Below are positions 378 through 24,164 of a DNA stretch of 30,965 nucleotides, piece by piece (positions within the stretch are counted from its first letter, which is position 1; each line of letters opens with the position of its first letter). Under the pieces are notes generated by a model that saw only the letters and a list, made by a program, of their open reading frames with translations, searched no databases and was not told the origin of the DNA. Made by a program: the position numbers and the translations under genes. The stretch is from a virus. The stretch lies in IMG/VR virus record IMGVR_UViG_3300043420_001514, positions 1-30,965 of that record; one strand, written 5' to 3'.

Positions 378-602
378 ATGTCCAAACTTGTTGCCCAGCT
401 GATTCTGGAGGCCGATGAAGAAGGCCCCGTCTGGCGGCTCGTCACCAGTCGCGATTCGATCGCCGATCAAGCCTGGCAACAGCGAGACTCCATCATCCGC
501 CTGGGAGATGGGGCAGCGGCTTTTGAAGTGATCTGGAAAACGGCTACCGGTGACGTGGTCACCCGTCACCAACCCGATCTTCCTGATGCTTTAGCCCTTT
601 GA
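378..602 (+). CDS. Small hypothetical protein
   Basis: A 74-residue protein starting at ATG 378. It is mixed and acidic, with an alternating pattern in its middle (PVWRLVTSRDSI, then AAFEVIWKTATGDVV) that suggests a small beta-rich fold. No family is recognised. It is divergent from the partial gene at 1-317, with the palindromic operator (357-372) in between, and its 3' end overlaps the 3' end of the minus-strand gene 559-1404 by 44 bases. No clear ribosome binding site is visible. The main doubt is whether the antiparallel overlap is genuine. Confidence 0.5.
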   Translation: MSKLVAQLILEADEEGPVWRLVTSRDSIADQAWQQRDSIIRLGDGAAAFEVIWKTATGDVVTRHQPDLPDALAL

Positions 603-1574: not shown

Positions 1575-2906
1575 ATGCCACAGAAAAACCTTGCAGGGCC
1601 TGGTGAGCGCATCACGGTGCATACAACCAACGATCTGCGCAATGCCGTGATCATCCCGAACTCCACTGCCCAGGACGCGAATCTGAGCTGGGCGGCCCGC
1701 GGATTGCTGCTGTTCATGCTCAGCCAGCCGATCAACTGGCAGTTCCACGAAAACGATCTGGTGAACCGCTCGCCGATGGGGCGTGATCACCTGCGATCCG
1801 TGGTGCGCGAACTGGAGGCCGCCGGCTACCTCAGGCGCTCTCGGATGCGCAAGGCCAATGGCGTTCTAGGTGGGCCGACCTGGCATGTCTGGGCCACACC
1901 CCAATCACCGGAATCCACTACAAACACTGACATCTCACCAGCGACTGGAAACCCAACGACGGAAAACCCGTCCCAGGCAAAAACCCGCGTCAGGACAGGA
2001 AAGTCACCTAAGACGGGAAAACCAACGACGGAAAACCCGTCTTTGGCACCAACGACGGGAAATCCGTCCTTGGTGCCAACGCCGGAAAATCCGTCTTTGG
2101 ACAGAACCCGCGTCAGGACAGGGAAGCCACCTAAGACGGGAAAACCAACGACGGAAAACCCGTCTTTGGCACCTGCGACGGGTTTTCCGTCCACATACAA
2201 AGAAAACAATCTTCCTTATGGATTTCCTGTAGAAAGCAATAAACCTCTATCCCCCCCTTCCCTGCGGGAAGGCCCCCCCCTTTCTCCAGCCGAGGGTTGC
2301 GAGGCTGCCCAGGAGCGGGCCGGCGAAGAGCGCGCGCCGCGTGCGGCGCTTACCACCCACAGCCGTTCAACCAACATCTGCACCACCGACCTGGACAGCT
2401 GCTCGCCGTCAGAGACGCCTAGCAGACCCGTGAAGGCTCCTGAACAGCCTCCCGGGTGTACCGACGCCGGGACACCTTCCAGGGGCGGCCTGCAGGGCCG
2501 CACAGGCGCCAGTCCGCTGCCGGCCTATGCCGAGCCGTACCGCGAGCAGCTGATCACCTGGCAGCGAGCCCGCCAGCAGCGCCACAAGGTCAAGCCTGAA
2601 AAGCTCTCCACCCGCTCGCTTTCCGCCCTGGCCTACGCCAGTCAACTGGGAGTTCTGGAGGAGTTCACCAGCCTCGCCGCTGAAGCCGGTTGGTTGTCCC
2701 TGGGCTTCAACGGCTACCGCGCCTTCATCGACGACCTGTTGGCAGAACAAAACGGCGAGCGTTCACGTTCATGCTCGGGGACGCTAGGCTCCCGGCAACC
2801 TGCCACATCCAGGCAGGAGCAGGCCTGTCGCGATGCCGTCGCCAAACTCGACGCCATGGCAAACGGTCAGATCACTAATCCCTTTGCGCCGTTCAACGCT
2901 GTCTAA
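1575..2906 (+). CDS. Replication-initiator-like winged-helix protein
   Basis: A 443-residue protein, taking ATG 1575; an upstream GTG at 1542 falls inside a hairpin. Residues about 20-90 match the winged-helix start of phage and plasmid replication proteins: IPNSTAQDANLSWAARGLLL, then a trimmed helical stretch and RDHLRSVVRELEAAGYLRR. Residues about 122-206 are a low-complexity run of TGKPTTENPSL-type repeats, which at DNA level form an iteron array. A proline- and glutamate-rich linker follows, and a C-terminal helical domain (about 320-390, YREQLITWQRARQQRHKVK) closes the protein. The order of DNA-binding head, repeat-bearing middle and C-terminal domain is that of lambda O-type initiators whose origin lies inside the gene. 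It probably binds the repeats and starts element replication. No helicase or loader is encoded nearby. It heads a chain of tightly packed small genes to 4759. Confidence 0.7.
   Translation: MPQKNLAGPGERITVHTTNDLRNAVIIPNSTAQDANLSWAARGLLLFMLSQPINWQFHENDLVNRSPMGRDHLRSVVRELEAAGYLRRSRMRKANGVLGGPTWHVWATPQSPESTTNTDISPATGNPTTENPSQAKTRVRTGKSPKTGKPTTENPSLAPTTGNPSLVPTPENPSLDRTRVRTGKPPKTGKPTTENPSLAPATGFPSTYKENNLPYGFPVESNKPLSPPSLREGPPLSPAEGCEAAQERAGEERAPRAALTTHSRSTNICTTDLDSCSPSETPSRPVKAPEQPPGCTDAGTPSRGGLQGRTGASPLPAYAEPYREQLITWQRARQQRHKVKPEKLSTRSLSALAYASQLGVLEEFTSLAAEAGWLSLGFNGYRAFIDDLLAEQNGERSRSCSGTLGSRQPATSRQEQACRDAVAKLDAMANGQITNPFAPFNAV
1958..2255. other. Candidate replication origin: iteron array plus AT-rich stretch
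   Basis: Six near-palindromes of the form GACGG-N5-CCGTC (first base once C) start at 1958, 2027, 2054, 2081, 2150 and 2177, so the intervals are 69, 27, 27, 69 and 27 bases. Partial copies (GACGGGAAAACC) lie at 2012 and 2135. Immediately after the last copy, 2192-2245 is clearly AT-rich compared with its surroundings (for example tacaaagaaaacaatc), as expected of an unwinding element. Iterons inside an initiator gene followed by an AT-rich segment is the lambda-type origin design. The spacing in multiples of three also follows from coding constraint, so the origin role is inferred. Confidence 0.55.
1983..2173. repeat. 68-bp direct repeat, two copies
   Basis: The segments 1983-2050 and 2106-2173 are each 68 bases and differ at only two positions by eye. 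Each copy carries one partial and one full copy of the GACGG-N5-CCGTC motif. The near identity points to a recent duplication within the replication gene that kept the reading frame (offset 123 bases, 41 codons). Confidence 0.85.
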
Positions 2907-4551: not shown

Positions 4552-4759
4552 GCAGCCCATACCACTGACCGCGGCTCAGGCGCTTCGAGTGATCGCAGCA
4601 AAAGCCCTTGAGATCAAAAGGGCCAATGGCGAGCTACCTGAGCACTACCCGGATCTCCTCGGTGCTCGGACTGAACTCGACTCGCTTTACAAATTGCAGC
4701 AGCACCGGACGCAACGTGGCGTTGTCCACGGCCCTAAAAGCCCGCTCGTCTTCCAGTAG
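4544..4759 (+). CDS. Small hypothetical protein running into the recombinase gene
   Basis: ATG 4544 overlaps the upstream stop (ATGCCTGA arrangement). The first ~32 residues (MPEQPIPLTAAQALRVIAAK, then ALEIKRANGELPEHY) look like a genuine helical protein. The remaining ~40 residues are read entirely from the antisense of the recombinase 3' end (4634-4759) and look less natural. The original 3' part may have been lost when the recombinase segment arrived. No function is recognised. Confidence 0.45.
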   Translation: MPEQPIPLTAAQALRVIAAKALEIKRANGELPEHYPDLLGARTELDSLYKLQQHRTQRGVVHGPKSPLVFQ

Positions 4760-5968
4760 GAACTGGTAATCCGGCATCAGCCACGGATCCACGATGCGAT
4801 CCATCCGCATATAGGCCACCTGATCCCGCAGATCCAGGATCGTCTTCCGCAGGCTTGGCACACCCTGTTCCTCCAGCTCTTCCAGCTGCCTGATCTGCTC
4901 ACGCAGCCGCGCCTCTTCTGGTGGAATCTCCGGTGGTGCATCCTCAGCCAGCAGCTGTGCCATCTGCTTGGCACGTTGCACAAGTGCCCGCGCCAACTCA
5001 TCCCTCACCCTGTCTTCTCTGACTGTCTTTCCGCATTGGCGGCACGACAGGTTGCGGCACTGGTATCTCGCCGCATGGGTCTGTTTGGCTGGTGTCTTCC
5101 AGCCCATGTACTTCCCGCAGCTACGGCACTGCAGCAGGCTCGTCAGCAGGTGCGCGTTGCCACCCTTCCTCTCCCTGGTCTTCGTCTCCCGCCGCGACAT
5201 CCAATAGCGCATTGCAGCGTTGTATTCCTCTGTGCTGATCAACCGCGGCGCACGGCCCCATTCGACCCGATCCCAGTTGCCAATCGACGTTCGCCCGTAG
5301 CCGATGCCCCCGCGCAGCATCGGATTGCGAACCCAGTTCAATAGGCCCGTCGCTGTTGGCTTCCACGGGAAGTCCTCCGGCAACCTTCTGATCGTCAACC
5401 TGAAGGCCAGCTGATCTGCCAGCAGCTGCTCAAACAGCCACCGTGCTTCCTGCCAGTGCTGGGGGTGCATGGCGGGCTTGCCATCAACTGCCACATACCC
5501 AAACGGCAGCCGCCCCCGTGCCAGATACCCCGCCTCTCTTCTCCGCCTTAAGCCATCGGCGCTCTTCAGCCCGATCATCCGCGCCTGCACCCGGTTCATC
5601 AGGCTGGTAACACCAGCTGACAGCAGCCCGCTCACCGACTGGTTCTCCCATACCTGCCCGAACAGGTCGCGTACTTCTGTCCCAGCAGTCGCGCATTCCT
5701 CCAGAAACTCCATATCGCTGCCGTCCCTGGCCAGCCGGCTCAGGTCAGCCACCAACACACGCCGCACCCGCCCCTGGGCCACAAGCAGCCGCAACTCCGT
5801 CCACCCTGGCCGCTGACCCTTAGACGCACTGCGCCGCTCGCTGATCACCCGGTCAACCCCTAGACGCTCAAACTCGGCCACCTGCATCTCGATGCTCGTG
5901 TCCTGCGCGTCCTGCATCGTGGAAACCCGCGCATAGCCGACCACCATCCGAGAATCCGGCCGGTTCAT
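4634..5968 (-). CDS. Large serine recombinase (site-specific integrase/excisionase type)
   Basis: A 444-residue protein that cuts and rejoins DNA at specific sites through a serine-DNA intermediate. The resolvase domain (about 8-140) has GYARVST with the nucleophile Ser16 and the DLSRLARDGSD motif with catalytic arginines. The recombinase domain (about 145-255) includes ARGRLPFGY. A zinc ribbon (CxxC at 281-284, further cysteines at 304, 309 and 312) is followed by a coiled coil (about 345-390). This is the layout of phage integrases and of cyanobacterial XisF-type excisionases, at the short end of the size range. It probably inserts or excises the element, but neither attachment site is visible. 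The gene is divergent from the ParB-terminase operon at 6026. Its 3' end overlaps the small plus-strand gene at 4544 by 126 bases. Confidence 0.93.
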   Translation of the reverse strand: MNRPDSRMVVGYARVSTMQDAQDTSIEMQVAEFERLGVDRVISERRSASKGQRPGWTELRLLVAQGRVRRVLVADLSRLARDGSDMEFLEECATAGTEVRDLFGQVWENQSVSGLLSAGVTSLMNRVQARMIGLKSADGLRRRREAGYLARGRLPFGYVAVDGKPAMHPQHWQEARWLFEQLLADQLAFRLTIRRLPEDFPWKPTATGLLNWVRNPMLRGGIGYGRTSIGNWDRVEWGRAPRLISTEEYNAAMRYWMSRRETKTRERKGGNAHLLTSLLQCRSCGKYMGWKTPAKQTHAARYQCRNLSCRQCGKTVREDRVRDELARALVQRAKQMAQLLAEDAPPEIPPEEARLREQIRQLEELEEQGVPSLRKTILDLRDQVAYMRMDRIVDPWLMPDYQFLLEDERAFRAVDNATLRPVLLQFVKRVEFSPSTEEIRVVLR

Positions 5969-8768: not shown

Positions 8769-8933
8769 TTATTCAATGCGCCACACGTCAATGCCGGGTA
8801 CGTCGTAATCCCAGGCCTTGCCCATGAATCTCAACCCATATGGCGGATCAGTCACCACAGCATCCACGCTGCAGTCCGGCATGGTGCGCATCACCTCTAA
8901 ACAGTCGCCGAGGTGAAGGGTGAGCTGGGCCAT
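8769..8933 (-). pseudogene. Truncated DNA methylase N-terminus (DPPYG motif)
   Basis: The 54-residue frame from ATG 8933 starts MAQLTLHLGDCLEVMRTMPD and continues with VDAVVTDPPYGLRFMGKAWDYDVP. This is the opening of an N4/N6-type DNA methyltransferase: the DPPYG catalytic motif followed by the usual GKxWDYDVP segment. It then stops at 8769, whereas intact enzymes run to more than 200 residues. A good ribosome binding site (GGAGG) lies nine bases before the ATG. No continuation of the methylase was found in other frames downstream, so this looks like a deletion remnant rather than a single frameshift. It follows the AbrB gene at a short distance on the same strand. Confidence 0.8.
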
Positions 8934-8977: not shown

Positions 8978-9412
8978 CTAGGGCACTGCGGCCAAGGCAG
9001 GGTTGCCGGTCAGCTCATCCACGAGCACAGGGGCAGGGCACACGGCTGGGCAGGCCTCGACCTGGTCCTGATTGGCCGGCTTCAGATGGATCAGTTTGAT
9101 CTGGTCCCGGCTGAGGTCGATTTGGAACGTGTCGCCAGGTTGCAGGCCAAGCATCCGCGTATAGGCCTTCCCGATCGTCAGGTTGCCGTTGAAATGCACC
9201 TTGGTGACACTCGACAGCTTGCGGCCGCGGGGGGCGGCCGCATCCGGCAGCAGCCCCTTGGCCTGCAGCACGGCGCGATAGAACTGCGCCGACAATGTGC
9301 GGGTGCGGCCATTGGCCGTCACTTTCGTGTAACCACAAGCCGCCGCCAGCTCTTTTTCCGTGGCGGTGGTATAGCGCTTCAGTGTGGCGAGAAGCTCAGG
9401 CCCGGTGATCAT
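8978..9412 (-). CDS. Cyanobacterial AbrB-family transcription regulator
   Basis: A 144-residue protein of the cyAbrB type. Residues 1-53 have the conserved cyanobacterial head (ITGPELLATLKRYTTATEKE, CGYTKVTANGRTRTL, FYRAVLQAKGLL). Residues about 68-111 are the swapped-hairpin AbrB DNA-binding domain (TKVHFNGNLTIGKAYTRMLG, QPGDTFQIDL, IKLIHL), which in cyanobacteria lies at the C-terminal end. A ~33-residue proline-rich tail beyond it (EACPAVCPAPVLVDEL) is unusual. Chromosomal cyAbrBs control carbon, nitrogen and redox genes; a phage-borne copy could redirect host transcription or act as its own repressor. This is the clearest cyanobacterial marker in the window. Confidence 0.9.
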   Translation of the reverse strand: MITGPELLATLKRYTTATEKELAAACGYTKVTANGRTRTLSAQFYRAVLQAKGLLPDAAAPRGRKLSSVTKVHFNGNLTIGKAYTRMLGLQPGDTFQIDLSRDQIKLIHLKPANQDQVEACPAVCPAPVLVDELTGNPALAAVP

Positions 9413-10055: not shown

Positions 10056-11000
10056 TCAATCAAGATCCAGTGGCAGCTGATACAGCCCAGGCTCCTTTCT
10101 GCGCTGTTCCGAATCATCGGCATCAGTGCCGGCCAGTCGCTTCAGTTGGGCGACAGCACTCTTGAGACGCAGCGAAACAGCCTGATGGCTGATTCCCATC
10201 TCCTGACTGATGGCCTTGAGACTGGCCCCCTCTAGGAAACTGCGCCGAACGATCATCTGATCGCGCTCCGGCAGGGTCTCGATGAACACCAGAATCTGCT
10301 CCAGCGCCAGATCGTCCTCCAGGTGCTCCTGGCCGCGCCGTGCATCCTCGCCGCCGATCAGGTCACCTAGAGCGCTGCGGTTGCTGTCCAGCTGGGCCGG
10401 CTTGTCGAGTGAGATCAGACTGCGGCAATGGGCGGCTCGGCGGGCCCGTGACAGCGTGCTGCCTGAAAGCTCCAGTCGGTCGTTCAGCTTTGCATCGGTG
10501 ATCTTTTCGCCCGCCTGGTGCATCCGCATCACTTCGGCGTCGATCTTGCGCATATCCTCCTGCAGATTCACCGGAATGCGGATCGTGTCTGCATTGGCGA
10601 TGTAGCGGGAGATCGCCTGGCGGATCCAGTTGAAGGCATAGGTGGAGAACTGATACCCCCTCGATGGGTCAAACAGTTCCACTGCCCGGATCAGGCCAAA
10701 GGTTCCTTCCTGGATCAGGTCATCCAGCGTGATGGCCGGATGGGTCAATTTGCGGCTGCTGGCAATGTGGACAACCAGCCGCAGATTGCATTCCACCATC
10801 CGGCGCTTGGCTCGCATTCCGGCTCGCTTGACGCCAGGAGGCGCTGCGTCAGGCCCCCCTTCCCAGTCCAGCCAGCGGCGAATTAGTCGAGCAGTTCGCA
10901 TCGACAGGTTTGGCGTCATCACTTGGAAGCGGCCGATGCTGTTGAGGAGCTGCTCGGTGGAATCAGGCACAGCGAGGCGCTGTTGACGGCGGCGTCTCAA
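10056..11000 (-). CDS. RNA polymerase sigma-70 family factor encoded by the element
   Basis: A protein of up to 314 residues. Region 2 is well conserved (about 65-135: [49 protein letters not shown]), with the promoter-melting aromatic residues in place. Region 3 follows (about 140-200), and region 4 holds a clear helix-turn-helix (about 255-288: [20 protein letters not shown]). A 25-residue tail ends in [12 protein letters not shown]. It resembles cyanobacterial group 2 or 3 factors, with a divergent region 1.2. The start is uncertain: TTG 11000 or GTG 10970. The gene is divergent from the portal gene with 89 bases between them, so it could direct late transcription of head genes or its own cassette. 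Confidence 0.92.
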
Positions 11001-14603: not shown

Positions 14604-14653
14604 AACCGTGCAAACCGTGCAAGTTTCCCGGAATCTGCACGGTTTGCACGGTT
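14604..14653. repeat. Large perfect inverted repeat (18-bp arms)
   Basis: AACCGTGCAAACCGTGCA (14604-14621) pairs perfectly with TGCACGGTTTGCACGGTT (14636-14653), leaving a 14-base loop. Each arm itself holds two copies of AACCGTGC in tandem, nine bases apart. It begins 51 bases after the head gene stop. It lacks a U-run, so it is either an RNA-stabilising or processing hairpin, or a protein-binding DNA site. Confidence 0.9.
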
Positions 14654-14660
14654 GACAGCC

Positions 14661-14839
14661 AAAGGAGACGGCCACCTCCTTTTTCCTGAACGGGAAAGGA
14701 GACGGCGATCTCCATTGAAAAAGAAGGAGACGGCCGCCTCCATTAAAAAAAGGAGACGGTGATCTCCTTTTGCTGAACGGGAAAAGGAGACGGTGATCTC
14801 CTTTTGCTGAACGGGAAAAGGAGACGGTGATCTCCTTTT
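14661..14839. repeat. Six tandem hairpins of the GGAGA-N6-TCTCC type (terminator array)
   Basis: Hairpin units lie at 14661-14682, 14698-14713, 14726-14741, 14748-14771, 14782-14805 and 14816-14839. The last three are identical: AAAAGGAGA, loop CGGTGA, then TCTCCTTTT, repeated every 34 bases with the spacer GCTGAACGGG. Each has a U-run on both strands, as intrinsic terminators do. The first three are diverged (loops CGGCGA, ACGGCCAC, ACGGCCGC). The array lies between the convergent head operon and the minus-strand gene ending at 14850. Confidence 0.9.
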
Positions 14840-14849
14840 CTCGACCCGC

Positions 14850-15254
14850 TCAGTAGGCCACCGCCAGGGCCACCAGCTGCGCCTTGGCCAGGCGTGTGCG
14901 GACGCCGGTGATGCGCCGCAGCTGGGCATTGCTAAGCAGCGCCAGATCGGCGCCCACCACCGCGAGCGGATGCAGGGCCGGCGGCGCTGGCAGCAAAGCC
15001 GGCTGGCGGGGCCGTGCGGCCAGCTTCAGCGGCGGCGGCACCAACCGCGTAGCCCACCAGCGGGCCAGCACGTCGTTGGCGCGGTGCAGGGCGCGGCCGG
15101 TGAACTCGCCAGCCACATAGGCAACGACCGTCAGGGCGATCAGCCCGCGCCAGACGATCTGGCCCACCTCGGCCCAGTCGATCTGGCCATGCAGCCAGCG
15201 GAGGGCCTTGAGGGTGATGACAACAGCGCGACGGGCGCTTTGCAGAGTGATCAT
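14850..15254 (-). CDS. Small membrane protein, function unknown
   Basis: A 134-residue protein with one likely membrane segment (about 33-53, QIVWRGLIALTVVAYVAGEF) after a basic N-terminus, then an arginine-flanked helix, a proline-rich linker and a C-terminal helical part (LSNAQLRRITGVRTRLAKAQ). It is the last gene of the cassette that begins at the operator at 15713. Small membrane proteins in such positions can be lysis or superinfection proteins, but nothing specific is recognisable. The hairpin array follows directly. Confidence 0.6.
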   Translation of the reverse strand: MITLQSARRAVVITLKALRWLHGQIDWAEVGQIVWRGLIALTVVAYVAGEFTGRALHRANDVLARWWATRLVPPPLKLAARPRQPALLPAPPALHPLAVVGADLALLSNAQLRRITGVRTRLAKAQLVALAVAY

Positions 15255-15359
15255 GGATCCACCCGGTTCATGCCGGGGCGAAGAGGATCAGGGGCGTCGG
15301 GAGCGCATCGTTTCCAGCGCTCAACCGACGATGAGAAAAGGTCGTCGCGGGGCCGTCCC

Positions 15360-15560
15360 TCAGCAGTCCCACTCAGCGAGCCGGGCCTTGGCGTCAGCCA
15401 GTTCCGACTCGACCGCATCGACTGCAGCAAGGGCCTCAAGGGCAGCCTGCTGCAGTTGCTCGGTGGAGCGGCACCACGCCGCGAAGGCTTCATCCAGCTC
15501 TGCGATCAGAGCAGCGGTTTCAGCCTCGCGGGCGAGGGCGTTGCGGGTGATGTCGTCCAT
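15360..15560 (-). CDS. Small helical protein
   Basis: The start ATG 15560 is fixed by a strong ribosome binding site (GGAGG, five bases upstream). The 66-residue protein is an alanine- and glutamate-rich coiled-coil candidate (IAELDEAFAAWCRSTEQLQQ, then AALEALAAVDAVESELADAK). No family is recognised. It is the first gene of the cassette behind the operator at 15713 and has a leader of about 130 bases. About 105 bases without a supported gene separate it from the membrane protein gene. Confidence 0.65.
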   Translation of the reverse strand: MDDITRNALAREAETAALIAELDEAFAAWCRSTEQLQQAALEALAAVDAVESELADAKARLAEWDC

Positions 15561-15579
15561 CGGTCCTCCGGTGTGTGGT

Positions 15580-15598
15580 GAGCACCAGGCGGGTGCTC
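15580..15598 (-). promoter_or_regulatory. Leader hairpin before the ribosome binding site
   Basis: GAGCACC (15580-15586) and GGTGCTC (15592-15598) form a perfect 7-bp stem with a five-base loop, about 10 bases upstream of the GGAGG site of the gene at 15560. It may regulate translation or simply protect the mRNA. Confidence 0.4.
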
Positions 15599-15697
15599 TG
15601 TGGTGTGCCTGGTAGAGCCACCACCGGGGCCGGGCGACAGCCCGCGGATTCTTCAGTTGTCCAGGTTCCTTGGGCCCTGGGGCGGGCCCGCGAAGCC

Positions 15698-15728
15698 ATA
15701 CTAACACCAGCCGTTCACGAACGTGAAC
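15698..15728 (-). promoter_or_regulatory. Promoter with perfect GTTCAC palindrome operator
   Basis: The 16-bp perfect palindrome GTTCACGAACGTGAAC (15713-15728) is followed on the minus strand after 9 nt by TAGTAT (15703-15698). The preceding cassette ends at 15749, only 20 bases away, so the site also marks the border between cassettes. Confidence 0.75.
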
Positions 15729-15748
15729 AGGGGCTGAGGAGGCCGTCG

Positions 15749-15943
15749 CTACAGCCGTTCAAATAGCCAGCTGGGCGGCCCGCCCGGCGGCACCAGATAG
15801 CCAAGCTCCTGCGAGTAGCGCTTCCCGCGGCCCGCCAGCCGCCAACCGTGCAGTTCAGCGCCGACCGGATGCTGCCGGGCCCAGTAGTTGACGGCCTGGC
15901 GTGTCAATCCGAGCAGCCGGGCCAGCTCCGGGCCGGTGATCAC
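15749..15943 (-). CDS. Small helix-turn-helix protein (excisionase/MerR-like)
   Basis: A GTG start at 15943 overlaps the stop of the 29-residue frame upstream (GTGA), so I prefer it to the longer frame to 16072. The 64-residue protein opens with MITGPELARLLGLTRQAVNY and WARQHPVG, a classic winged-helix recognition segment, then HGWRLAGRGKRYSQELGYLV. It could be an excisionase or a small repressor. It is the last gene of the cassette that starts at 16980. Confidence 0.6.
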   Translation of the reverse strand: MITGPELARLLGLTRQAVNYWARQHPVGAELHGWRLAGRGKRYSQELGYLVPPGGPPSWLFERL

Positions 15944-16029
15944 CGTTCCAGCCGGTGCCTGCTGTAGCGGCGCCCCCAGCGGTAGTAGCCGTTGGGGGTG
16001 GAGCGGATGGTGATGAGGAGGGGGTTCAT
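15940..16029 (-). CDS. 29-residue coupled mini-protein
   Basis: This short frame (ATG 16029, stop 15940) starts MNPLLITIRSTPNGYYRWG and ends RRYSRHRLER. Its start overlaps the upstream stop (ATGA) and its stop overlaps the next start (GTGA), so ribosomes can pass through all three. The basic, beta-like sequence and double coupling suggest a real peptide. Function is unknown. It may exist mainly to couple translation of the helix-turn-helix gene. Confidence 0.5.
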   Translation of the reverse strand: MNPLLITIRSTPNGYYRWGRRYSRHRLER

Positions 16030-16424
16030 TTGAGCCGCGGCGCTTCGGAGATCGGAAGGGGTACCAGCCCATCGGTGGGGATGTAGACCACGGTCTTCTC
16101 GCCCTTGTCGTTCTGCTCTTGGAGGCCTTGGATGTAGAGCCAGCGGAGGTATGCGTCGCTGCTGCCGAGCTCGGCTTTGAGAGCGGCTATGGCCTGGGCA
16201 CTCCCTTGAGCTTTTGTGATCTCGGCCATTGCTTCGAGTTCGGCTGATTCCTGCTTCGCCTTGGCCTCAAGCACGCGAACTTGACGAGTGCTCTCGGCTT
16301 CCATCAGGGCGGCGCGCCCCCTAAGCGTCCGGTTATAGACACCGAGTTGGGGTGTACCCCAAAGGATGAAAGCAAGGACAGCGACGCTGCTAGTGACGAT
16401 GGCGATGTAGGTGGAGCGGTTCAT
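16026..16424 (-). CDS. Small membrane-anchored SPFH/prohibitin-related phage protein
   Basis: Start ATG 16424 gives 132 residues with an N-terminal membrane segment (about 6-24, YIAIVTSSVAVLAFILWG). It continues with GVYNRTLRGRAALMEAEST, a long charged helix (RQVRVLEAKAKQESAELEAM) and LRWLYIQGLQEQN, then TVVYIPTDGLVPLPI. This matches the compact phage relatives of membrane protease subunits (SPFH class), which keep the coiled coil and the terminal V-Y-(I/V)-P-T motif but lack the SPFH domain proper. It is expected in the inner membrane, where it might modulate host proteases. The frame is open to 16460, but ATG 16424 places the membrane segment right after the start. Confidence 0.75.
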   Translation of the reverse strand: MNRSTYIAIVTSSVAVLAFILWGTPQLGVYNRTLRGRAALMEAESTRQVRVLEAKAKQESAELEAMAEITKAQGSAQAIAALKAELGSSDAYLRWLYIQGLQEQNDKGEKTVVYIPTDGLVPLPISEAPRLK

Positions 16425-16506
16425 AGAGGTCAGAGAGCTTGGTGCGAGTTGGCAGGCCAAGCTGCTTCGGCTGGTTGGAGAGCGGCCTCAGCCGGCGGGG
16501 CGGCCG

Positions 16507-16662
16507 TCAATCGGTCCATGCCTTGCGCTCAGCGGCTGCCTTTTCTGCAGCGGCTGCCTTGCGGGCCCTGACGTGAGCGACCCATTCGTCATGGGTCATG
16601 TTGTCGAGCCAGGGGCAACGGCCCTGAGCATCGGGAACCTGGCGCTGGTAGGGGGCTTTCAT
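16507..16662 (-). CDS. Small hypothetical protein, 51 residues
   Basis: ATG 16662 starts MKAPYQRQVPDAQGRCPWLD and continues NMTHDEWVAHVRARKAAAA with a charged alanine-rich tail. The NMTHDEWVAHVRARK pattern looks like a small conserved helix pair. It is too short to recognise. It overlaps the longer tail of the frame 16589-16759 by 74 bases, so one of the two may be untranslated. Confidence 0.5.
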   Translation of the reverse strand: MKAPYQRQVPDAQGRCPWLDNMTHDEWVAHVRARKAAAAEKAAAERKAWTD

Positions 16663-16759
16663 GGCAGGGTTTGTGTCTTGAGGCTTCAGGGGCCGTGGGG
16701 TCGATGGTCGGTTCGTCCGGGAACAAGACGTTGATCAGCAGGTCGGCGGGGTAGCTCAC
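16589..16759 (-). CDS. Small hypothetical protein, coupled GTG start
   Basis: A GTG at 16759 overlaps the stop of the upstream gene (GTGA), giving 56 residues starting MSYPADLLINVLFPDEPTID. The first half is plausible, while the second half (after about residue 32) overlaps the next gene in another frame and is proline-rich. The coupling is the main evidence, and the C-terminal part is doubtful. Confidence 0.4.
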   Translation of the reverse strand: MSYPADLLINVLFPDEPTIDPTAPEASRHKPCHESPLPAPGSRCSGPLPLARQHDP

Positions 16760-16980
16760 AGCCCCCACGCCTCCGCCGCCCACTGCTTCAGCTCATTGAG
16801 TGTCAGCCAGTTGCACTCAGGGGTGGCATCGCCGCACTCGCGCTGCAGATTGCGGCCGGCCCAGTAATCGACCCAGCAGTGGTAGACGGGCGCCTGACCG
16901 CGCAGGCGGGTGAAATGGATTTTCATGCCGCGGGCGGCGGCGGCTTGACGGACAGCGGTCAGGGTGATGGTGGCGGTCAT
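16756..16980 (-). CDS. Small hypothetical protein, first gene of its cassette
   Basis: A 74-residue protein starting MTATITLTAVRQAAAARGMK and ending in the helix LTLNELKQWAAEAWGL. The middle (YHCWVDYWAGRNLQRECGDA) is aromatic and cysteine-containing. No family is recognised. It lies 56 bases downstream of the best promoter of the regulon (-10 TATGAT at 17041-17036), so it is the head of a six-gene unit reaching 15749. Confidence 0.7.
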   Translation of the reverse strand: MTATITLTAVRQAAAARGMKIHFTRLRGQAPVYHCWVDYWAGRNLQRECGDATPECNWLTLNELKQWAAEAWGL

Positions 16981-17035
16981 GGCGGATGGTGGCGAAGGGG
17001 CAGGCGGGCATCACAGCGGCCGTCCCTGCCCCTCG

Positions 17036-17065
17036 ATCATACATCAGCTGTTCACGTTTGTGAAC
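17036..17065 (-). promoter_or_regulatory. Promoter with GTTCAC palindrome operator
   Basis: GTTCACAAACGTGAAC on the minus strand (17065-17050) is followed after 8 nt by TATGAT (17041-17036), close to the ideal -10 box. The operator overlaps the stop codon region of the upstream gene (stop at 17052-17054), so the cassettes are directly abutted. Confidence 0.8.
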
Positions 17066-17423
17066 GGCCCCGGTCGATGGCGCTTTGCCTCAGGGCTCTA
17101 GCCTTGGCCAGGTATTGGTCATAAATCTCCGGCGGCATTTCGGCTTCGGCCACTTGCTTGAAAAATACGCCCAATGGGAACTCCGCTCTTAAGTCTTCCA
17201 GTCGTCTTTGCCTGGCTTCGTTTGCGGCTTTTCGCATCTGTCTCAGGGATCTGCGCAAAGATATAAGCCGTGCCTTGCGACTGCCAGTGGCATGGCGCAA
17301 GACCTTGTCCACCTCCTGGAGGACGCGATGGCAGTCGTCGGGCGGAACAGCTGCGGCAAGATTCGTTGTATTGATCTTGCGCTTAAGCACGGCAGACCAA
17401 AAAGACCATTTCTCTTCATCCAT
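17052..17423 (-). CDS. Basic helical protein after the Csx16-like gene
   Basis: A 123-residue protein whose ATG overlaps the stop of the Csx16-like gene by eight bases. It is rich in arginine, lysine and alanine (HATGSRKARLISLRRSLRQM, RKAANEARQRRLEDLRAEFP) and likely helical throughout, so nucleic-acid binding is possible. No family is recognised. As the last gene of the cassette headed by 18938, it is a natural functional partner of the Csx16-like protein, though this is only positional. Confidence 0.65.
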   Translation of the reverse strand: MDEEKWSFWSAVLKRKINTTNLAAAVPPDDCHRVLQEVDKVLRHATGSRKARLISLRRSLRQMRKAANEARQRRLEDLRAEFPLGVFFKQVAEAEMPPEIYDQYLAKARALRQSAIDRGRSQT

Positions 17424-17742
17424 CCAGCAGGCTCCTTTCGGTATGAAGCCGACGCACCTGGAAGGTGTTGATTACAGCCCCCGCTGCATCCATCTCTTGC
17501 ACCGTGAGCAGCCCGCGGTTGAAGCGATCTCGATCGGCTCGGTCCAGCCCTGGCATATGAACCTCCGAGACGGTCTGGGCAAAGGCCGCCACCCAGTAAG
17601 GCAAGGTGCCAAAGACATTCCGATGTACCACGCTGTCCGGGGTGGCATAGGGAATCACGGGCCCGCGAATGCCTTTGTCGGCTAGCCACTCGACCAGACT
17701 TTCGTTGCGGGTCACAATCAGTGGATCCGAAAAGTTATACAT
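17416..17742 (-). CDS. csx16: Csx16-like protein (putative ring nuclease/cyclic-oligoadenylate family)
   Basis: A 108-residue protein. It follows the Csx16 (VVA1548) pattern from end to end: LIVTRNESLVEWLADKGI (about 8-25, where family members have TRH-x-G-x-x-EWL), the strand VFGTLPYWVAAFA (43-55, family V-I-G-TLP-x-x-L-A-A), VHMPGLD (61-67) and RGLLTVQEMDAAGAVINTF (about 76-95, family RG-x-EL-x-x-x-x-M). The family is normally found with type III CRISPR systems and has been assigned to ring nucleases, which destroy the cyclic oligoadenylate signal. Here the conserved histidine after TR is asparagine. No CRISPR genes are nearby. In a phage element the obvious role is to blunt host cyclic-nucleotide defence. 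A TTG start at 17748 is an alternative. Confidence 0.78.
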   Translation of the reverse strand: MYNFSDPLIVTRNESLVEWLADKGIRGPVIPYATPDSVVHRNVFGTLPYWVAAFAQTVSEVHMPGLDRADRDRFNRGLLTVQEMDAAGAVINTFQVRRLHTERSLLDG

Positions 17743-17744
17743 GG

Positions 17745-18317
17745 TCAAGGAGATTCAGTGGAAAGGATGTTCTCGATGGCTAGCGCAGCTCGTAACTCTT
17801 GAAGGCCTAGTTCCCCCAGCCCTTTTACTTTTATAGGTGGCTGATCAGACCAATCCTTAAGTTCGTCCGCATAACGAAAACCTGCTCTAAGCAAGGAGTT
17901 TTGGGTTCTTAGTCTTAGCCCCAGGTCTTGTATCGCCACTCTGCGAGGTGCAATAAGGGGCTCGGATGGGCAAGCAGAGTCCGCTTCATAGTGCAATAGA
18001 GCTGCCGCGGCCATCTGGCCATGTTGTTCCAGCCAGCAGGCAATCTCTTCAATAATCTTTCGCGCTTCATTTACCCCCGTGCCGTAAGGCTCGCTTTGTC
18101 GTATAACTTCAGATACACGTCTCATCAAAAAATGGCGAAGATTGATGGACTTTTGGCTATTTAGCTCAAACCCAAGCTCGGTGACGAGTTTTTCAATCCA
18201 AAACCGTGTCAATCCAGTGGCCTCAGCCTGCTGCCGCTCTAGCTGCTTCAGGTCCACCTCAAGGGATGAAAGCCACGGTGGTGGCTGTGGATCGCTCGGG
18301 CGTTTTGCGTCAGTCAT
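17745..18317 (-). CDS. Protein with an RNA polymerase alpha-CTD-like domain
   Basis: ATG 18317 (overlapping the upstream stop by eight bases) gives 190 residues. The N-terminal 120 residues are helical with no match I know (IEKLVTELGFELN, RHFLMRRVSEVIRQ, ARKIIEEIACWLEQHGQMA). Residues about 128-182 read like the alpha C-terminal domain of RNA polymerase: IQDLGLRLRTQNSLLRAGFR, then ADELKDWSD and IKVKGLGELGLQELRAAL, with the helix-hairpin-helix GLGELG element. Alpha-CTD binds DNA UP elements and activators. A free copy could modulate host transcription or simply use the fold for DNA binding. It is directly upstream of the Csx16-like gene. This stretch (17745-18400) looks more AT-rich by eye than its neighbours, suggesting separate acquisition. 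Confidence 0.7.
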   Translation of the reverse strand: MTDAKRPSDPQPPPWLSSLEVDLKQLERQQAEATGLTRFWIEKLVTELGFELNSQKSINLRHFLMRRVSEVIRQSEPYGTGVNEARKIIEEIACWLEQHGQMAAAALLHYEADSACPSEPLIAPRRVAIQDLGLRLRTQNSLLRAGFRYADELKDWSDQPPIKVKGLGELGLQELRAALAIENILSTESP

Positions 18318-18756
18318 TGCGAAGCTCCAGTTCAATCAAAGAAACAATTTCATCAAAAGTTGCAAGCCAGTCATCTTGACATTTGCGTTCGATCAACCAT
18401 GCCTGCACTGCACAGATCGCGGCGCGGGATTCATGCAGGTACAAGTTAGGGTCAGCGCAGGCGCTGGGATGTATCGCTGCAGAAACACGCTCCACCAGCG
18501 AACGATCAGGTTTGGCCGGATCGTTGGGTTCCGCTGGCTGGGCGGCATCCAGCCCGACCTTGAGGCGTGAGCCGGTGCTCAGGATGGTTCGCCGATCGGC
18601 CTCCAGTGCCTCCACGCGGGCGCGGAGTTCAAGGACACAGGACGAAAGCTCTTTCGGGTCCAGGTCGCAAGGGGTGCCGCAGTATTCGCAGACCCACCAG
18701 TGTGTTGTCCCAGGCCCGCCCACGCTGACCGGTGCGCCGCAGCAGTCGGAGATCAT
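18310..18756 (-). CDS. Zinc-ribbon-like hypothetical protein
   Basis: ATG 18756 is supported by a strong ribosome binding site (GGAGGT) and by an ATGA overlap with the upstream stop. The 148-residue protein begins MISDCCGAPVSV, with further cysteines at THWWVCEYCGTPCD (23, 26, 30), forming a probable zinc ribbon. A short coiled coil follows (SSCVLELRARVEALEADRRT), and then a helical C-terminal part (RVSAAIHPSACADPNLYLHE, IERKCQDDWLATFDEI). Phages often carry such N-terminal zinc-ribbon proteins of unknown role. Confidence 0.65.
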   Translation of the reverse strand: MISDCCGAPVSVGGPGTTHWWVCEYCGTPCDLDPKELSSCVLELRARVEALEADRRTILSTGSRLKVGLDAAQPAEPNDPAKPDRSLVERVSAAIHPSACADPNLYLHESRAAICAVQAWLIERKCQDDWLATFDEIVSLIELELRND

Positions 18757-18938
18757 GGGGTTACCTCCAGCCCCTCGCCTTTCAGGCGGCGCCAATACAG
18801 CTCGCGCAGCCCGTAACAGAAAACCTCATTCTGATGGTCTCCAATGGCTTGGAAGTAACGCATTCGTAGCGTCTCCCAGCGCCAGCCCGAATAAAGCAAG
18901 TGCTCAGGGACGGACTCTGTTGGTGTTTTGCGTGGCAT
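18753..18938 (-). CDS. Small hypothetical protein, first gene of the Csx16 cassette
   Basis: A 61-residue protein starting MPRKTPTESVPEHLLYSGWR and containing WETLRMRYFQAIGDHQNEVF and LRELYWRRLKGEG. It is basic and helical and has no known family. It lies 49 bases after the operator-promoter at 18988-19017, and its stop overlaps the start of the next gene. It therefore heads the five-gene cassette that contains the Csx16-like gene. Confidence 0.65.
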   Translation of the reverse strand: MPRKTPTESVPEHLLYSGWRWETLRMRYFQAIGDHQNEVFCYGLRELYWRRLKGEGLEVTP

Positions 18939-18987
18939 AGGTTCAGATACAACACAAGCGGCAACAGCCAGCCGTCACCGCTCACGA

Positions 18988-19017
18988 ACACTACTATGGC
19001 CGTCCACATCTGTGAAC
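18988..19017 (-). promoter_or_regulatory. Promoter with GTTCAC palindrome operator
   Basis: Minus strand: GTTCACAGATGTGGAC (19017-19002), then 8 nt, then TAGTGT (18993-18988). A further half-site-like GCTCACGAACA lies at 18980-18990. The upstream cassette ends at 19037, 19 bases away. Confidence 0.65.
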
Positions 19018-19036
19018 GGCTGTGACCAAAAGAAAA

Positions 19037-19327
19037 TCAGCGGTATAGCCAGCCGCTGGTGGGGCCCACAGGGTCAGCGCCGGCCATGGCCCGCTCGACG
19101 GTGCTGCGGACCCCCTTGGCGGGGGCCTGCCAGCTGGCGGCCTTGAGGATGGCCCCGTCGGTCTTTCGCACAAAGCAGTAGATCGAACGATGGGTCAAGG
19201 CGGCGGCGCCTTGCAAGATGGGCGCCATCCAGATCCTGTCGTAGGTGCGGCCGGGCTGAATGCCGTAGGCATAGCCAACAGGATTGAAGCGATGATTCAG
19301 AAGGTCAACAAAAGCAGTGGCATTCAC
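19037..19327 (-). CDS. Small conserved phage-type protein
   Basis: A 96-residue protein. The pattern GIQPGRTYDRIWM, SIYCFVRKTDGAILKAASWQ and APAKGVRSTVERAM, ending SGWLYR, is one I associate with small proteins of unknown function in phages and plasmids: a single beta-rich domain in which a (C/F)V-x-K-x-(D/T)G-x-(I/V)-(L/Y)-KAASW motif is the core. No biochemical role is known to me. It is the second gene of the cassette starting at 19630, 12 bases after the first. Confidence 0.65.
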   Translation of the reverse strand: MNATAFVDLLNHRFNPVGYAYGIQPGRTYDRIWMAPILQGAAALTHRSIYCFVRKTDGAILKAASWQAPAKGVRSTVERAMAGADPVGPTSGWLYR

Positions 19328-19339
19328 GGCGGTTCTGAT

Positions 19340-19630
19340 TCAGATGGTGGGCAGGTAAACGGTCTTGGAAATGCGCGTGGCGGGGGTGATGCCCACGGTC
19401 TTGCCGCCGCGGGACCAGGCCTGTTTCCAGCGCCGAGCCACAGTCAGTTCGACGACACCGCTCATGCGGTTCCAGGCGGTTGAGCCGATCCCAGCCTTGA
19501 CCCATAGGACTACGGGGTAGAGCAAATCCCCGCGCCCGTCTGAAATCCAACGCTCGTCCATGTCTGGAGTTAGCGCTTCATAGACGGCCCTGGGGCGAGC
19601 AATGGTCATGGTTCGCGATGCGATGGTCAT
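19340..19630 (-). CDS. Small hypothetical protein, first gene of its cassette
   Basis: The likely start is ATG 19630 (MTIASRTMTIARPRAVYEAL, 96 residues); ATG 19609 is an alternative. The frame to 19663 would run into the promoter region. The protein is beta-rich (LLYPVVLWVKAGIG, GVVELTVARRWKQAW, ISKTVYLPTI). The ending K-T-V-Y-L-P-T-I resembles the end of the SPFH-type gene product but is probably coincidental. No family is recognised. The promoter with operator lies 37-66 bases upstream. Confidence 0.6.
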   Translation of the reverse strand: MTIASRTMTIARPRAVYEALTPDMDERWISDGRGDLLYPVVLWVKAGIGSTAWNRMSGVVELTVARRWKQAWSRGGKTVGITPATRISKTVYLPTI

Positions 19631-19666
19631 GCAGGCACCCAATCCGTCAGGGCGTCCCGCCACAGA

Positions 19667-19708
19667 AGCCTACCTCATCTGTTCACGCTTGTGAACGGTC
19701 GTTATCTG
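19667..19708. promoter_or_regulatory. Operator GTTCACGCTTGTGAAC between divergent genes
   Basis: The palindrome is at 19681-19696. On the minus strand TAGGCT (19672-19667) follows after 8 nt and serves the gene at 19630. On the plus strand TATCTG (19703-19708) follows after 6 nt and could serve the genes from 19780. One bound dimer could therefore control both directions. Confidence 0.65.
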
Positions 19709-19779
19709 AATTAGGGAAAAATCTATTGCCTGACCGTCCACGCCTAGGTATGGTCTGCCTGTTGTTCACTGCTGGGACC

Positions 19780-21499: not shown

Positions 21500-22363
21500 A
21501 TGACCGTTCTCAACGAGATGGCCCGCCTGGTGCGGGACGAGCTGCTGACGCTGATTCAACCCGTCACGCTGCTGTCAGTCAACCCTGAGCGCAAAAGCGG
21601 TGCGGTAAGCGGCCGATTTCGGAGCAGTGGAATGCTTTTCGACTACAGCATTAGAGGTAACCGGGTTTCCTACAGGCCCGCTGGTAGTCGCTTAGATAGC
21701 GGCACTGCGGCAGCAGAGCTCTACGAAACAGTCGCCGAAGCCTGGCAGTTGGCATCGGAACTCGCTGAGGCGGCCGAACGCCTTGACACCCGCTGCCAAA
21801 AGCCAGACGGCACGATCTATGGCACCGCCGGCAAGTGCAAGCAGGGCCGTGAGCTGCGCCAGCGCAGCAGCGCCAAGCCGTCGTCCTCTGCGGGCGGGGC
21901 CGCAAAACCCAAAGCGAAAAAAACCGGCGCGAAAAAGCGTCAGAGCAAAAAAGCCCCTGATGAACGATTGGCGCGACTGGCAAAGCAAGAGATTTACGAA
22001 AGACTGGGTGCTTTTAGCGAGCAAGACAAGCTGACACCAGCTCAAAAGCGCACCCACATGCGGAGAGCGTTAAGTGCCGCAAAACGCCGCTACAGGGCAG
22101 GCGAAGATGCACCAAAGGATTTGCAGTCTCCTACGCATACGCCAAAGGCGCCAAGGCCCTACAGGAAATCCAGAAAGCCAAAGCCTGTAGCCGATCCTGG
22201 GCGCCTGCAGAAACTACAAAAAAGGGAGCTTGATAAAGCGTTTGGGTCAGGCGGCACTGGAATCGCCAACTTCAACACGATGCCCGCCCGTCAAAGAAAC
22301 AAGCTCCACGATGCGGCATTACGAAAAGCCCTCCGTGCCTACAACGCAGGGGAGGCAGTGTGA
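21500..22363 (+). CDS. Cysteine-module protein with basic C-terminal repeats
   Basis: A 287-residue protein. Its first 65 residues (VTLLSVNPERKSGAVSGRFR, then MLFDYSIRGNRVSYRPAGS) are related to residues about 335-372 of the 1181-residue protein at 24236, sharing the VSYRPA element. A helix then leads to the type A cysteine module: AAERLDTRCQKPDGTIYG and GKCKQGRELRQRSS (Cys99 and Cys113). A lysine/alanine linker follows. The C-terminal half holds two copies of a basic domain (about 160-202 and 239-285), each running from L-x-K-x-E through a turn to AYNAGE or RYRAGE. It shares the helix-RLDT-cysteine tag with all the large proteins downstream. I know no function. A DNA- or capsid-binding role is possible from the charge. 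Confidence 0.7.
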   Translation: MTVLNEMARLVRDELLTLIQPVTLLSVNPERKSGAVSGRFRSSGMLFDYSIRGNRVSYRPAGSRLDSGTAAAELYETVAEAWQLASELAEAAERLDTRCQKPDGTIYGTAGKCKQGRELRQRSSAKPSSSAGGAAKPKAKKTGAKKRQSKKAPDERLARLAKQEIYERLGAFSEQDKLTPAQKRTHMRRALSAAKRRYRAGEDAPKDLQSPTHTPKAPRPYRKSRKPKPVADPGRLQKLQKRELDKAFGSGGTGIANFNTMPARQRNKLHDAALRKALRAYNAGEAV

Positions 22364-23865
22364 TGAGAGTGCCTGAAAGGAGCCAAGTGCGCCTAGACGC
22401 ATTGCGTGAGCGAGCCGCCCATGCAATGCGTCTGGCAAGCCAAATGCGGCAAGGCACTCGTTGCAAGCGGCTTATGGAGCCACGGAAAGACTCCTACATG
22501 CAGGGTTTCCGCGAAGTCGTTAGCCGCCTGGATACACGCTGCCAGAAGCCTGACGGCACGATCTATGGAACCAGCGGCAAATGCAGGCAAGGCCGCGAGC
22601 TGCGTCGGAGAACCAGCGCCGATGGCCCCGGAGAGGGCAGGGCCTTTGCCGAGCAGTACGGCATGAAGTATTCGGCCGCCAATGAGCGGGTTGTCAGGCG
22701 GGCCCGCAGTGTCCCGGATGAAGCCTGGAACGAGCTTCCGGTCAAGAGCCTGCCCCATGGCACACAGCTGCAGGCCAACGAGAAAACCCTGAAGCTCAAG
22801 CCGATCAACAAGGTCGTTTCGGGTCGGGAGCCATTCCGAGAGGGCTACGTCACCAAGCTCTGGCAGGACGGGCGCGGACGGCTGCACGTTGCCGATGGCC
22901 ACCACCGGGTTGCCATGTATCACGCCTTGGGCAAGGACATGCCGGTGCGGATCATGTCGGAAGCCGATTACAAGCGGCTCAGCCGGCGTCGTGACAGCTG
23001 GAATGACAACCGCCTGGACACCCGCTGCCAGAAGCCTGACGGGTCGATCTACGGCACCGCCGGACGCTGCCGCCAGGGGCGCGAGTTGCGCCAGCGCAGC
23101 AGCACTGATCCCAGTAAGACGCCCACCACCTACGACCGGACGCCACCAGCCAACCCGCCCTACTGCTGCAACAAGCAGGTGGAGAAGGTTACCAAGGCGC
23201 TTCGGGCCCGCATCGCCAAGCTGGAGCCGGCCATGTCGGAGGAAATGATCGGCCTGGCCAACAAGCACGGGGCCAAGCTGGATGGGTTTCCGTACCGACT
23301 GAAATCGGAGAAAAGCCTGGGCAGAAAGATCGAAAATGAATACAAGTCCGACGAGTTTGGGGGTGATATAGAGAAGTGCGCCAACGCGATGTCGGACGTG
23401 GTGCGCTACACAATCAAAACAACAAACGAGAGATACACCGACACTGTTGAAAACGTGCTCTCTGATCTTAAGGCGAAAGGCTACGAGGCGCGGGTGAAGA
23501 ATTACTGGGAAGAGGGCCAGCCCTACAGGGGCATGAACGTGGCCCTGACCAGCCCAGACGGCCTCAAGGTGGAGCTGCAGTTCCACACGCCGCAGAGTCT
23601 CTACGTCAAGGAGAAGACCCACAGGCTCTACGAGGACTACCGGGTGGAGAAAAACGATGCCAAGCGCCGCAAGCTCTACGACGCGATGGTGCGGATCACG
23701 GACAAGCTGATCCCGCCATGGGGTACGGCCACCAATGCCGGCTCCCGGTCGCCCCAGGTGCGAGACTTGGCCCGTAACTCCGCACGAGAGCGCGAGCGGT
23801 TGCTGAGCATCGGCAAGCGCAAAAAAATGGGCTTCCAGACTGCCAAGGAAGCGGGGCTGACGTAG
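22363..23865 (+). CDS. RelA/SpoT-like nucleotidyltransferase with two cysteine modules and a ParB-like domain
   Basis: ATG 22363 (GGAGG eight bases upstream, overlapping the previous stop) gives 500 residues. Layout: helix; type A cysteine module (Cys60, Cys74); ParB-like domain (about 125-200: VKSLPHGTQLQ, VADGHHRVAMYHALGKDMPV); second type A module (Cys222, Cys236); then about 265-455 a RelA/SpoT synthetase-like domain. In the last I see RLKS (Arg312, Lys314), MSDVVRY (Asp345), YRGMNVAL and VELQFHT (Glu404, Gln406), plus KEKTHRLYE (His420). These are the equivalents of the pyrophosphokinase active-site residues, so it is probably active. The domain occurs in alarmone synthetases and in toxins that modify nucleotides or tRNA. 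Among phage head genes a toxin role is most likely. No hydrolase domain is present. Confidence 0.8.
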   Translation: MRVPERSQVRLDALRERAAHAMRLASQMRQGTRCKRLMEPRKDSYMQGFREVVSRLDTRCQKPDGTIYGTSGKCRQGRELRRRTSADGPGEGRAFAEQYGMKYSAANERVVRRARSVPDEAWNELPVKSLPHGTQLQANEKTLKLKPINKVVSGREPFREGYVTKLWQDGRGRLHVADGHHRVAMYHALGKDMPVRIMSEADYKRLSRRRDSWNDNRLDTRCQKPDGSIYGTAGRCRQGRELRQRSSTDPSKTPTTYDRTPPANPPYCCNKQVEKVTKALRARIAKLEPAMSEEMIGLANKHGAKLDGFPYRLKSEKSLGRKIENEYKSDEFGGDIEKCANAMSDVVRYTIKTTNERYTDTVENVLSDLKAKGYEARVKNYWEEGQPYRGMNVALTSPDGLKVELQFHTPQSLYVKEKTHRLYEDYRVEKNDAKRRKLYDAMVRITDKLIPPWGTATNAGSRSPQVRDLARNSARERERLLSIGKRKKMGFQTAKEAGLT

Positions 23866-23878
23866 CGACGCCCAGAGC

Positions 23879-23927
23879 GTTCACGAACATGAACGCAGTG
23901 CTACACTGATTGCGGCCCCAGTGGGCC
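23879..23927 (+). promoter_or_regulatory. Promoter with GTTCAC palindrome operator and leader hairpin
   Basis: GTTCACGAACATGAAC (23879-23894) is followed after 7 nt by TACACT (23902-23907). In the leader, GGCCC and GGGCC form a five-pair hairpin followed by TTTC (about 23914-23930). It is the only strong copy facing the plus strand and serves the gene at 23952. Confidence 0.75.
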
Positions 23928-23951: not shown

Positions 23952-24164
23952 GTGGCTTTCAAATACTGGTGCAGGCTCCGCGGGAACAAGCCCGTGATCC
24001 TGTTCCGCATGAGCGCCGAGGGTGGCGAGGAAGTGCTGAACATGGACGGCTGGGGGCCTGCTCCTGGCAGCTACGAGGACATCCTGGAGGGCAGCTTTGA
24101 TTATCAGCCGATCGGCGAGAAGCTGGCACGCGACTACTTCCCCAAAGGATTCGTTGAAGGGTGA
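23952..24164 (+). CDS. Small acidic protein with its own operator-controlled promoter
   Basis: A GTG start at 23952 with an optimal GGAGGT five bases upstream gives 70 residues: MAFKYWCRLRGNKPVILFRM, then EVLNMDGWGPAPGSYEDILE and KLARDYFPKGF. It is a compact, mildly acidic protein without a known family. It lies 86 bases after the RelA/SpoT-like gene and is the only gene in this region with a promoter of the accessory regulon, so it can be made when the effector series is silent. That pattern would fit an antitoxin or immunity protein for the RelA/SpoT-like protein, but this is inference. Confidence 0.65.
   Translation: MAFKYWCRLRGNKPVILFRMSAEGGEEVLNMDGWGPAPGSYEDILEGSFDYQPIGEKLARDYFPKGFVEG

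Follow-up and report, generated by a model that had tools for sequence, protein, structure and literature searches.

We analyzed the IMG/VR virus record IMGVR_UViG_3300043420_001514, a contig of 30,965 bp that is a fragment of a phage genome and is referred to here, at its full length, as the window. One palindrome, GTTCAC-N4-GTGAAC, stands at the promoters of a phage recombination gene, four antisense accessory cassettes and a single-gene unit. Judging from the sequence, the palindrome probably serves as an operator for a phage-encoded repressor that binds as a dimer. This protein would most likely maintain immunity in a temperate, tailed phage that probably infects freshwater picocyanobacteria.

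Palindromic sites and promoters in the window

When at most one mismatch was allowed, GTTCAC-N4-GTGAAC was found at exactly six sites, three of them exact (15713–15728, GTTCACGAACGTGAAC; 17050–17065, GTTCACGTTTGTGAAC; 19681–19696, GTTCACGCTTGTGAAC) and three with one mismatch (357–372, GTTCTCATCCGTGAAC; 19002–19017, GTCCACATCTGTGAAC; 23879–23894, GTTCACGAACATGAAC). The same six positions had been given in a first-pass annotation of this DNA, and the scan of the whole record found no others at this threshold. The reversed control pattern had no match in the record. The ten fixed bases, GTTCA-N6-TGAAC, occurred four times exactly and six times with at most one mismatch, versus 0.0 and 0.47 expected from first-order Markov shuffles. 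Further, no arm/spacer palindrome was found more than twice in 60 shuffles. At two or three mismatches, the motif was near background (16 versus 9.4 expected), and therefore only the strong sites are informative.

All six sites were located 40–153 nt upstream of genes, and each was followed at a distance of 7–9 nt, on the strand of the following gene, by a TANNNT box (background at that distance, 0.37%). These boxes were identical to the -10-like boxes that the annotation had named. The minus-strand site at 357 (-10 TAGTTT, gap 7) lies in the promoter of the ERF recombinase gene, which runs leftward. The sites at 19681 (TAGGCT, gap 8), 19002 (TAGTGT, gap 8), 17050 (TATGAT, gap 8) and 15713 (TAGTAT, gap 9, then a leader of ~150 nt), all on the minus strand, head cassettes 1 to 4, respectively, and the plus-strand site at 23879 (TACACT, gap 7) precedes a single small gene (23952–24164, plus strand). 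The four cassettes, each with one operator at its head and two to five small genes, constitute the antisense block 14850–19700. As the annotation had described, the upstream cassette ends 20 nt before (15749), inside (17052) or 19 nt before (19037) the next operator.

The left palindrome arm, TTCACG, lies ~17 bp before the -10 and shares four of six bases with TTGACA. The suggestion that the operator substitutes for a -35 element thus held for its position in this phage, where it covers the -35/spacer region. It did not hold as a strict replacement, given the 4/6 match, nor did it hold in relatives, whose sites fall within the spacer or on the downstream side of the -10.

Operators in related phages and alternative explanations

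Relatives were found by TerL (12 viral contigs, 81–95% identity) and their genes were called using a simple codon-usage caller; enrichment was counted without the window and without duplicates. In the intergenic DNA of these relatives, GTTCA-N6-TGAAC with at most one mismatch was detected 11 times, whereas 59 other permutations of the arms averaged 0.42 sites and never exceeded 4. When the spacing between the GTTCA and TGAAC arms was varied, other spacings yielded 0–4 sites compared with 11 for N6. At two mismatches, the count was 42 versus 8.3 (maximum 22). The sites of the relatives precede the ERF operon, the sigma-factor gene, an alpha-CTD gene accompanied by thymidylate synthase (ThyX) and dCTP deaminase genes, and several accessory cassettes. 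The earlier claim that one promoter-linked type of operator is common to all cassettes was supported, and an early phage gene shares this operator.

The position of the site relative to the -10 was not constant in the relatives. In the ERF promoters of four distinct relatives, two operators flank the -10; for example, that of G004 reads GTTCAAGATCCTGAAT-N6-TAGGGT, followed within 10 nt by GTCCAATGCTCTGAAC. In the alpha-CTD promoters of G004 (21438), G005 (6254) and G006 (62726), the site begins directly after the -10 (TAGGCT or TAGCCT) and covers the probable transcription start, and at position 16695 of G010 it lies two bases upstream of the -10. Overall, the site is either downstream of the -10 or upstream with gaps of 2, 4, 6, 7, 8 or 9. 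This freedom of offset, together with the paired copies around the -10, therefore argues for steric repression and not for an activator or a sigma element.

A function in activation would nevertheless account for some features of the window. The palindrome could be bound by a phage activator, or be a -35-like element for the phage sigma factor (10056–10970), in which case the six promoters would form a middle or late class. The left arm is placed as a -35 in this phage, and the phage encodes both a sigma factor and an alpha-CTD-like protein. However, both arms are equally conserved, which a single sigma region 4 would not need, and the positions in the spacer or downstream of the -10 in relatives are those at which activators and -35 elements fail. 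Further, the site is missing from more distant phages, although members of one such clade carry a sigma gene: in this second TerL clade (64–65% identity, 21 contigs) the operator was not enriched over the reversed control, except in G016 (six scattered matches), and S-CBS4, a Synechococcus phage whose portal is the nearest among named phages, had four one-mismatch matches in 69 kb and no shared recurrent palindrome. We consider activation quite unlikely. A scan of the IMG/VR collection for the operator with a -10 returned more than 100 matches, one per stretch save for one record with two overlapping matches, and we read these as chance.

Repression could also be exerted by a lytic-phase autorepressor, Cro-like or Aca-like, that closes the early and accessory promoters later in infection. 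Aca proteins repress acr operons via operators over their promoters; likewise, the operators here overlap early promoters and head counter-defence-like genes, and small helix-turn-helix (HTH) proteins exist in these phages (one encoded at 15749–15943 in cassette 3, the other an XRE protein of G006). However, the G006 XRE gene, which was the only HTH_3 match above the cut-off, has its own palindrome, GTTCC-N5-GGAAC, that is spaced differently, and we rejected it as the regulator; G011 possesses GTTCA-N6-TGAAC-like sites with no HTH_3 match; and the 15749–15943 protein corresponds to a piece of a KilA-N-family protein and scored weakly for an HTH. Such an autorepressor is thus an unlikely owner of the site. 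The XRE gene is antisense within the structural region (L142 19700–20000; G006 39700–40073), with its palindrome, GTTCCTGAGCGGAAC, at the start codon, and gp021 of S-CBS4 is an analogous antisense repressor gene.

A host regulator whose site was hijacked by the phage seems improbable. The phage carries a gene for a cyanobacterial AbrB-like regulator, and regulators are therefore exchanged with the host. To our knowledge, however, no cyanobacterial regulator has this site, and the inner bases of the palindrome vary between this phage and its relatives, which suits a co-evolving phage protein: they are C6/G11 here and in L125, the relative closest to this phage, and mostly R6/Y11 in the other relatives. 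Such a difference would fit a joint divergence of the operator and its regulator. Finally, chance recurrence or an artefact of promoter shape would be compatible with the number of matches in the record at two or more mismatches, which is near background. The TANNNT boxes at six of six sites and the six sites versus 0.47 expected count against chance, and the independent, spacing-specific enrichment in relatives refutes it; we regard chance as scarcely credible.

Repression, cassette mobility and the candidate regulator

If the palindrome is the operator of an immunity repressor, a repressor bound over the core promoter would block RNA polymerase. In the prophage state, the leftward recombination operon (ERF and SSB-like genes) would be silenced, as would the four antisense accessory cassettes and the single-gene unit of this phage and, in relatives, the sigma-factor and alpha-CTD/ThyX operons. 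Infection or induction would then release all operator-headed units jointly. The early timing of the ERF, sigma and alpha-CTD/ThyX genes is suggested by their functions, and we infer likewise that the binding protein is a repressor with a role in immunity.

The annotation had also proposed that the operator-headed units can be added or lost as modules, and the relatives support that units can move with their operator. The cassette composed of 15360–15560 and 14850–15254, which is on the minus strand in the window, was found with its leader of ~150 nt at another locus in three relatives (G004, G007 and G010), where it immediately follows terL, is encoded on the opposite (plus) strand and again stands behind an operator. 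The leader (15560–15712, minus strand) is conserved in these three relatives as a GC-rich sequence of 140–150 nt between the operator and the first gene, and it is possibly a structured RNA; Rfam had no match for it or elsewhere. In G006, the accessory locus that follows the minor head gene is occupied by a different antisense gene set, and an operator-like sequence with two mismatches overlaps the first start codon. Thus, as read from the sequences, the gene content varies behind a head operator that is retained, and at least one cassette was relocated together with its operator.

With its own copy of the operator, a cassette could relocate without losing control. As a tentative extension, the operator might act as a portable docking unit: new counter-defence or accessory cassettes would be acquired with or beside the immunity operator, silenced in the prophage and freed at infection, and the repressor would represent a novel type in which a CBM5/12-like insert interrupts the XRE domain.

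The candidate for this repressor is the product of 559–1404 (minus strand), which by inspection has an XRE-like HTH with a CBM5/12-like beta insert. Its gene is flanked by the ERF operator on one side and the divergent replication gene on the other, and this arrangement was shared by all five distinct phages with contig coverage of the region. The AlphaFold2 model (pLDDT 82) comprised two helices, a small beta domain and two more helices; the modeled helices are suggestive of an XRE domain in which the beta domain is inserted before the recognition helix. Further, hhalign aligned the protein with an insert-less HTH-like protein of G011 (E=3e-4, probability 38%) over the second half of the HTH-like domain. 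The 559–1404 product, the best candidate by position, has about an even chance of being the operator-binding repressor.

Several observations weigh against these assignments. Foldseek recognised only the CBM5/12-like chitin-binding insert in the 559–1404 model, with weak E-values, and a Pfam search found no HTH in this protein; the structure prediction of the insert-less homolog (G011:8356-8904) was of low quality (pLDDT 42). Between 559–1404 and the replication gene there were half-site-like sequences only and no clear full operator. The record is a fragment, and the regulator may lie outside it. One operator per cassette may give just partial repression. Further, alignments of TerL and the integrase found no integrated copies in GTDB representative genomes.

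The window itself contains a serine recombinase (integrase) gene (4634–5968, minus strand), and the evidence for lysogeny comes from a relative. The contigs G006 (70,829 bp), G007 and G008 are 100% identical over their shared parts. G007 joins both ends of G006 beside the recombinase gene (attP), and G008 joins one end to an interrupted recQ-like gene (attL). Compared by sequence, the three represent a single phage as prophage, with its attP and with its attL, and an immunity repressor is therefore expected in these phages. The prophage is located in the recQ-like gene (G008 1–1486; G006 70829), and attP lies between the serine recombinase and parB-like genes. A cyanobacterial host is indicated by the AbrB-like gene (PF14250) and the nearest named phages, and the host is probably a freshwater picocyanobacterium.

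Among known systems, lambda is the nearest in layout. Lambda CI binds the palindromic operators OL and OR at early promoters, and cI is flanked by the recombination operon on one side and a divergent replication gene on the other. Similarly, the palindromes here are at early promoters, are paired around the -10 in relatives, and 559–1404 is placed as cI. In contrast to lambda, there is no triple OL/OR cluster, many distant promoters with accessory genes have single sites, and the promoter of 559–1404 itself has no clear operator. The cassettes also resemble morons, which are typically expressed from the prophage, in that they are accessory genes of variable content, antisense among structural genes, with their own promoter and terminator. 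The genes on either side of the hairpin-ended antisense block, which follows the minor head gene, are conserved in relatives, and in G006 a different antisense block occupies this place. Unlike morons, however, the units here contain multiple genes and are apparently under the same operator as an early lytic gene; this shared operator suggests that the cassettes would not be expressed from the prophage. Acr-Aca operons likewise hold small counter-defence genes under a palindromic operator, but here one type of operator serves several operons and a core phage gene, and no Aca-family regulator was identified.

The SPBRE/MrpR regulon of Bacillus phage SPbeta is the nearest described logic. In that phage, a repeated ~15-bp element, seen in the sequence long before its protein, is present at the promoters of many, mostly uncharacterised, prophage genes, and one master repressor keeps lysogeny (PMC10516654). 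A repeated element of this kind in the promoter regions of prophage genes was found here as well. In contrast, MrpR has a tyrosine-recombinase-like fold, which the candidate regulator encoded by 559–1404, XRE-like by inspection with a CBM5/12-like insert, does not show, and the operators here head antisense cassettes within structural genes, one cassette being seen at two loci with its operator. The annotation had likened the sites to the stoperators of mycobacteriophage L5. Stoperators of L5 and other Cluster A phages are also repressor-type sites scattered across the phage genome, but they are asymmetric, 13 bp long, mostly point one way with respect to transcription and bring about termination during elongation (PMC6550527, PMC9283540). 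The sites here are symmetric two-arm palindromes over core promoters, all six at TANNNT boxes, and the likeness was not upheld.

If the immunity-operator reading is correct, lysogeny control and counter-defence would be linked in one code that can be read from the sequence of uncultured, probably picocyanobacterial, phages. Every promoter with the palindrome would then belong to the early or silenced gene set, so that accessory genes of unknown function, possible anti-CRISPR genes included, could be listed from sequence. These phages would also provide a case of accessory cassettes visibly moving with their operator.

Genes of the cassettes and of the remaining window

All genes of the four cassettes are on the minus strand. 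Cassette 1 consists of gene A (19340–19630), to which no function was assigned, and gene B (19037–19327), a DUF7717 gene (PF24835, E=5.5e-12); no operator was found near relatives of DUF7717. The genes of cassette 2 overlap by 4–8 nt (17416/17423, 18310/18317, 18753/18756). They are gene A (18753–18938) and gene E (17052–17423), both without an assigned function, the stop of gene E lying inside the operator of cassette 3; gene B (18310–18756), with a homolog in L127 (45% identity); gene C (17745–18317), RNA polymerase alpha-CTD-like (PF03118, E=1.8e-6); and gene D (17416–17742), Csx16-like and thus a candidate cA4 ring nuclease (PF09652, E=1.1e-5, 26 bits versus a cut-off of 25; PADLOC Csx16, E=3e-5). 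Csx16 breaks down cA4, the messenger of type III CRISPR systems, and was found in just 2 of 28,114 phage genomes (PMC12409355). From its sequence similarity, a counter-defence role for gene D is plausible. Relatives of the Csx16-like protein (56–64%) were found in another phage lineage (L185–L190; TerL 42% in L187), directly after a conserved gene of ~357 aa and without a GTTCA-N6-TGAAC-type operator. The phages with stand-alone alpha-CTD-like proteins (17745–18317 and those of G003, G004, G005 and G006) encode a sigma factor as well, and the alpha-CTD-like proteins could redirect the host polymerase.

Cassette 3 comprises genes A (16756–16980), B (16507–16662), C (16026–16424; 47% identity to a homolog in the viral contig L137) and D (15749–15943). 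The product of gene D is a small HTH_17/YdaS-like protein whose HTH profile scores were below the cut-offs; it matches the C-terminal end of the relatives' KilA-N proteins (74–76% identity), and the KilA-N domain (PF04383) was found in L146. Cassette 4 is formed by genes A (15360–15560) and B (14850–15254), and B accompanies A in the relatives. Six tandem hairpins with T/A runs (14662–14844; form AAGGAGACGG-N-ATCTCCTTTT, spacing 26–34 bp) lie between the convergent head operon and cassettes and are a probable two-way terminator; the array, an unusually high number of successive terminators, is partly kept in L125. A perfect 18-bp inverted repeat (AACCGTGCAAACCGTGCA ... TGCACGGTTTGCACGGTT) is located at 14604–14653.

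The ERF-family single-stranded DNA-annealing recombinase gene (3–317, minus strand) encodes the N-terminal part and continues past the record end; its syntenic homolog in L146 matched PF04404 (E=4e-10). The gene after ERF in relatives encodes an SSB-like protein with an acidic DDDIPF tail at its end. The gene divergent from 559–1404 (1575–2906, plus strand) encodes a replication initiator (PHROG 4707 and related, E ~1e-16). The sigma-70-family factor gene (10056–10970, minus strand; PF04542, E=1.5e-17) has operator-like sites at its promoter in relatives and a degenerate one here (11040). The ParB-like, terS, terL, portal and minor head genes of the phage are all on the plus strand.

A DNA methyltransferase remnant with a DPPY motif (8769–8933, minus strand) lies directly after terL, and the AbrB-like gene (8978–9412, minus strand) is located between terL and the sigma gene. 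By inspection, 22360–23865 contains ParB/nuclease-like and RelA/SpoT-like regions and cysteine-rich DTRCQKPDGTIYGTAGKCRQGRE repeats similar to those in large late proteins nearby.

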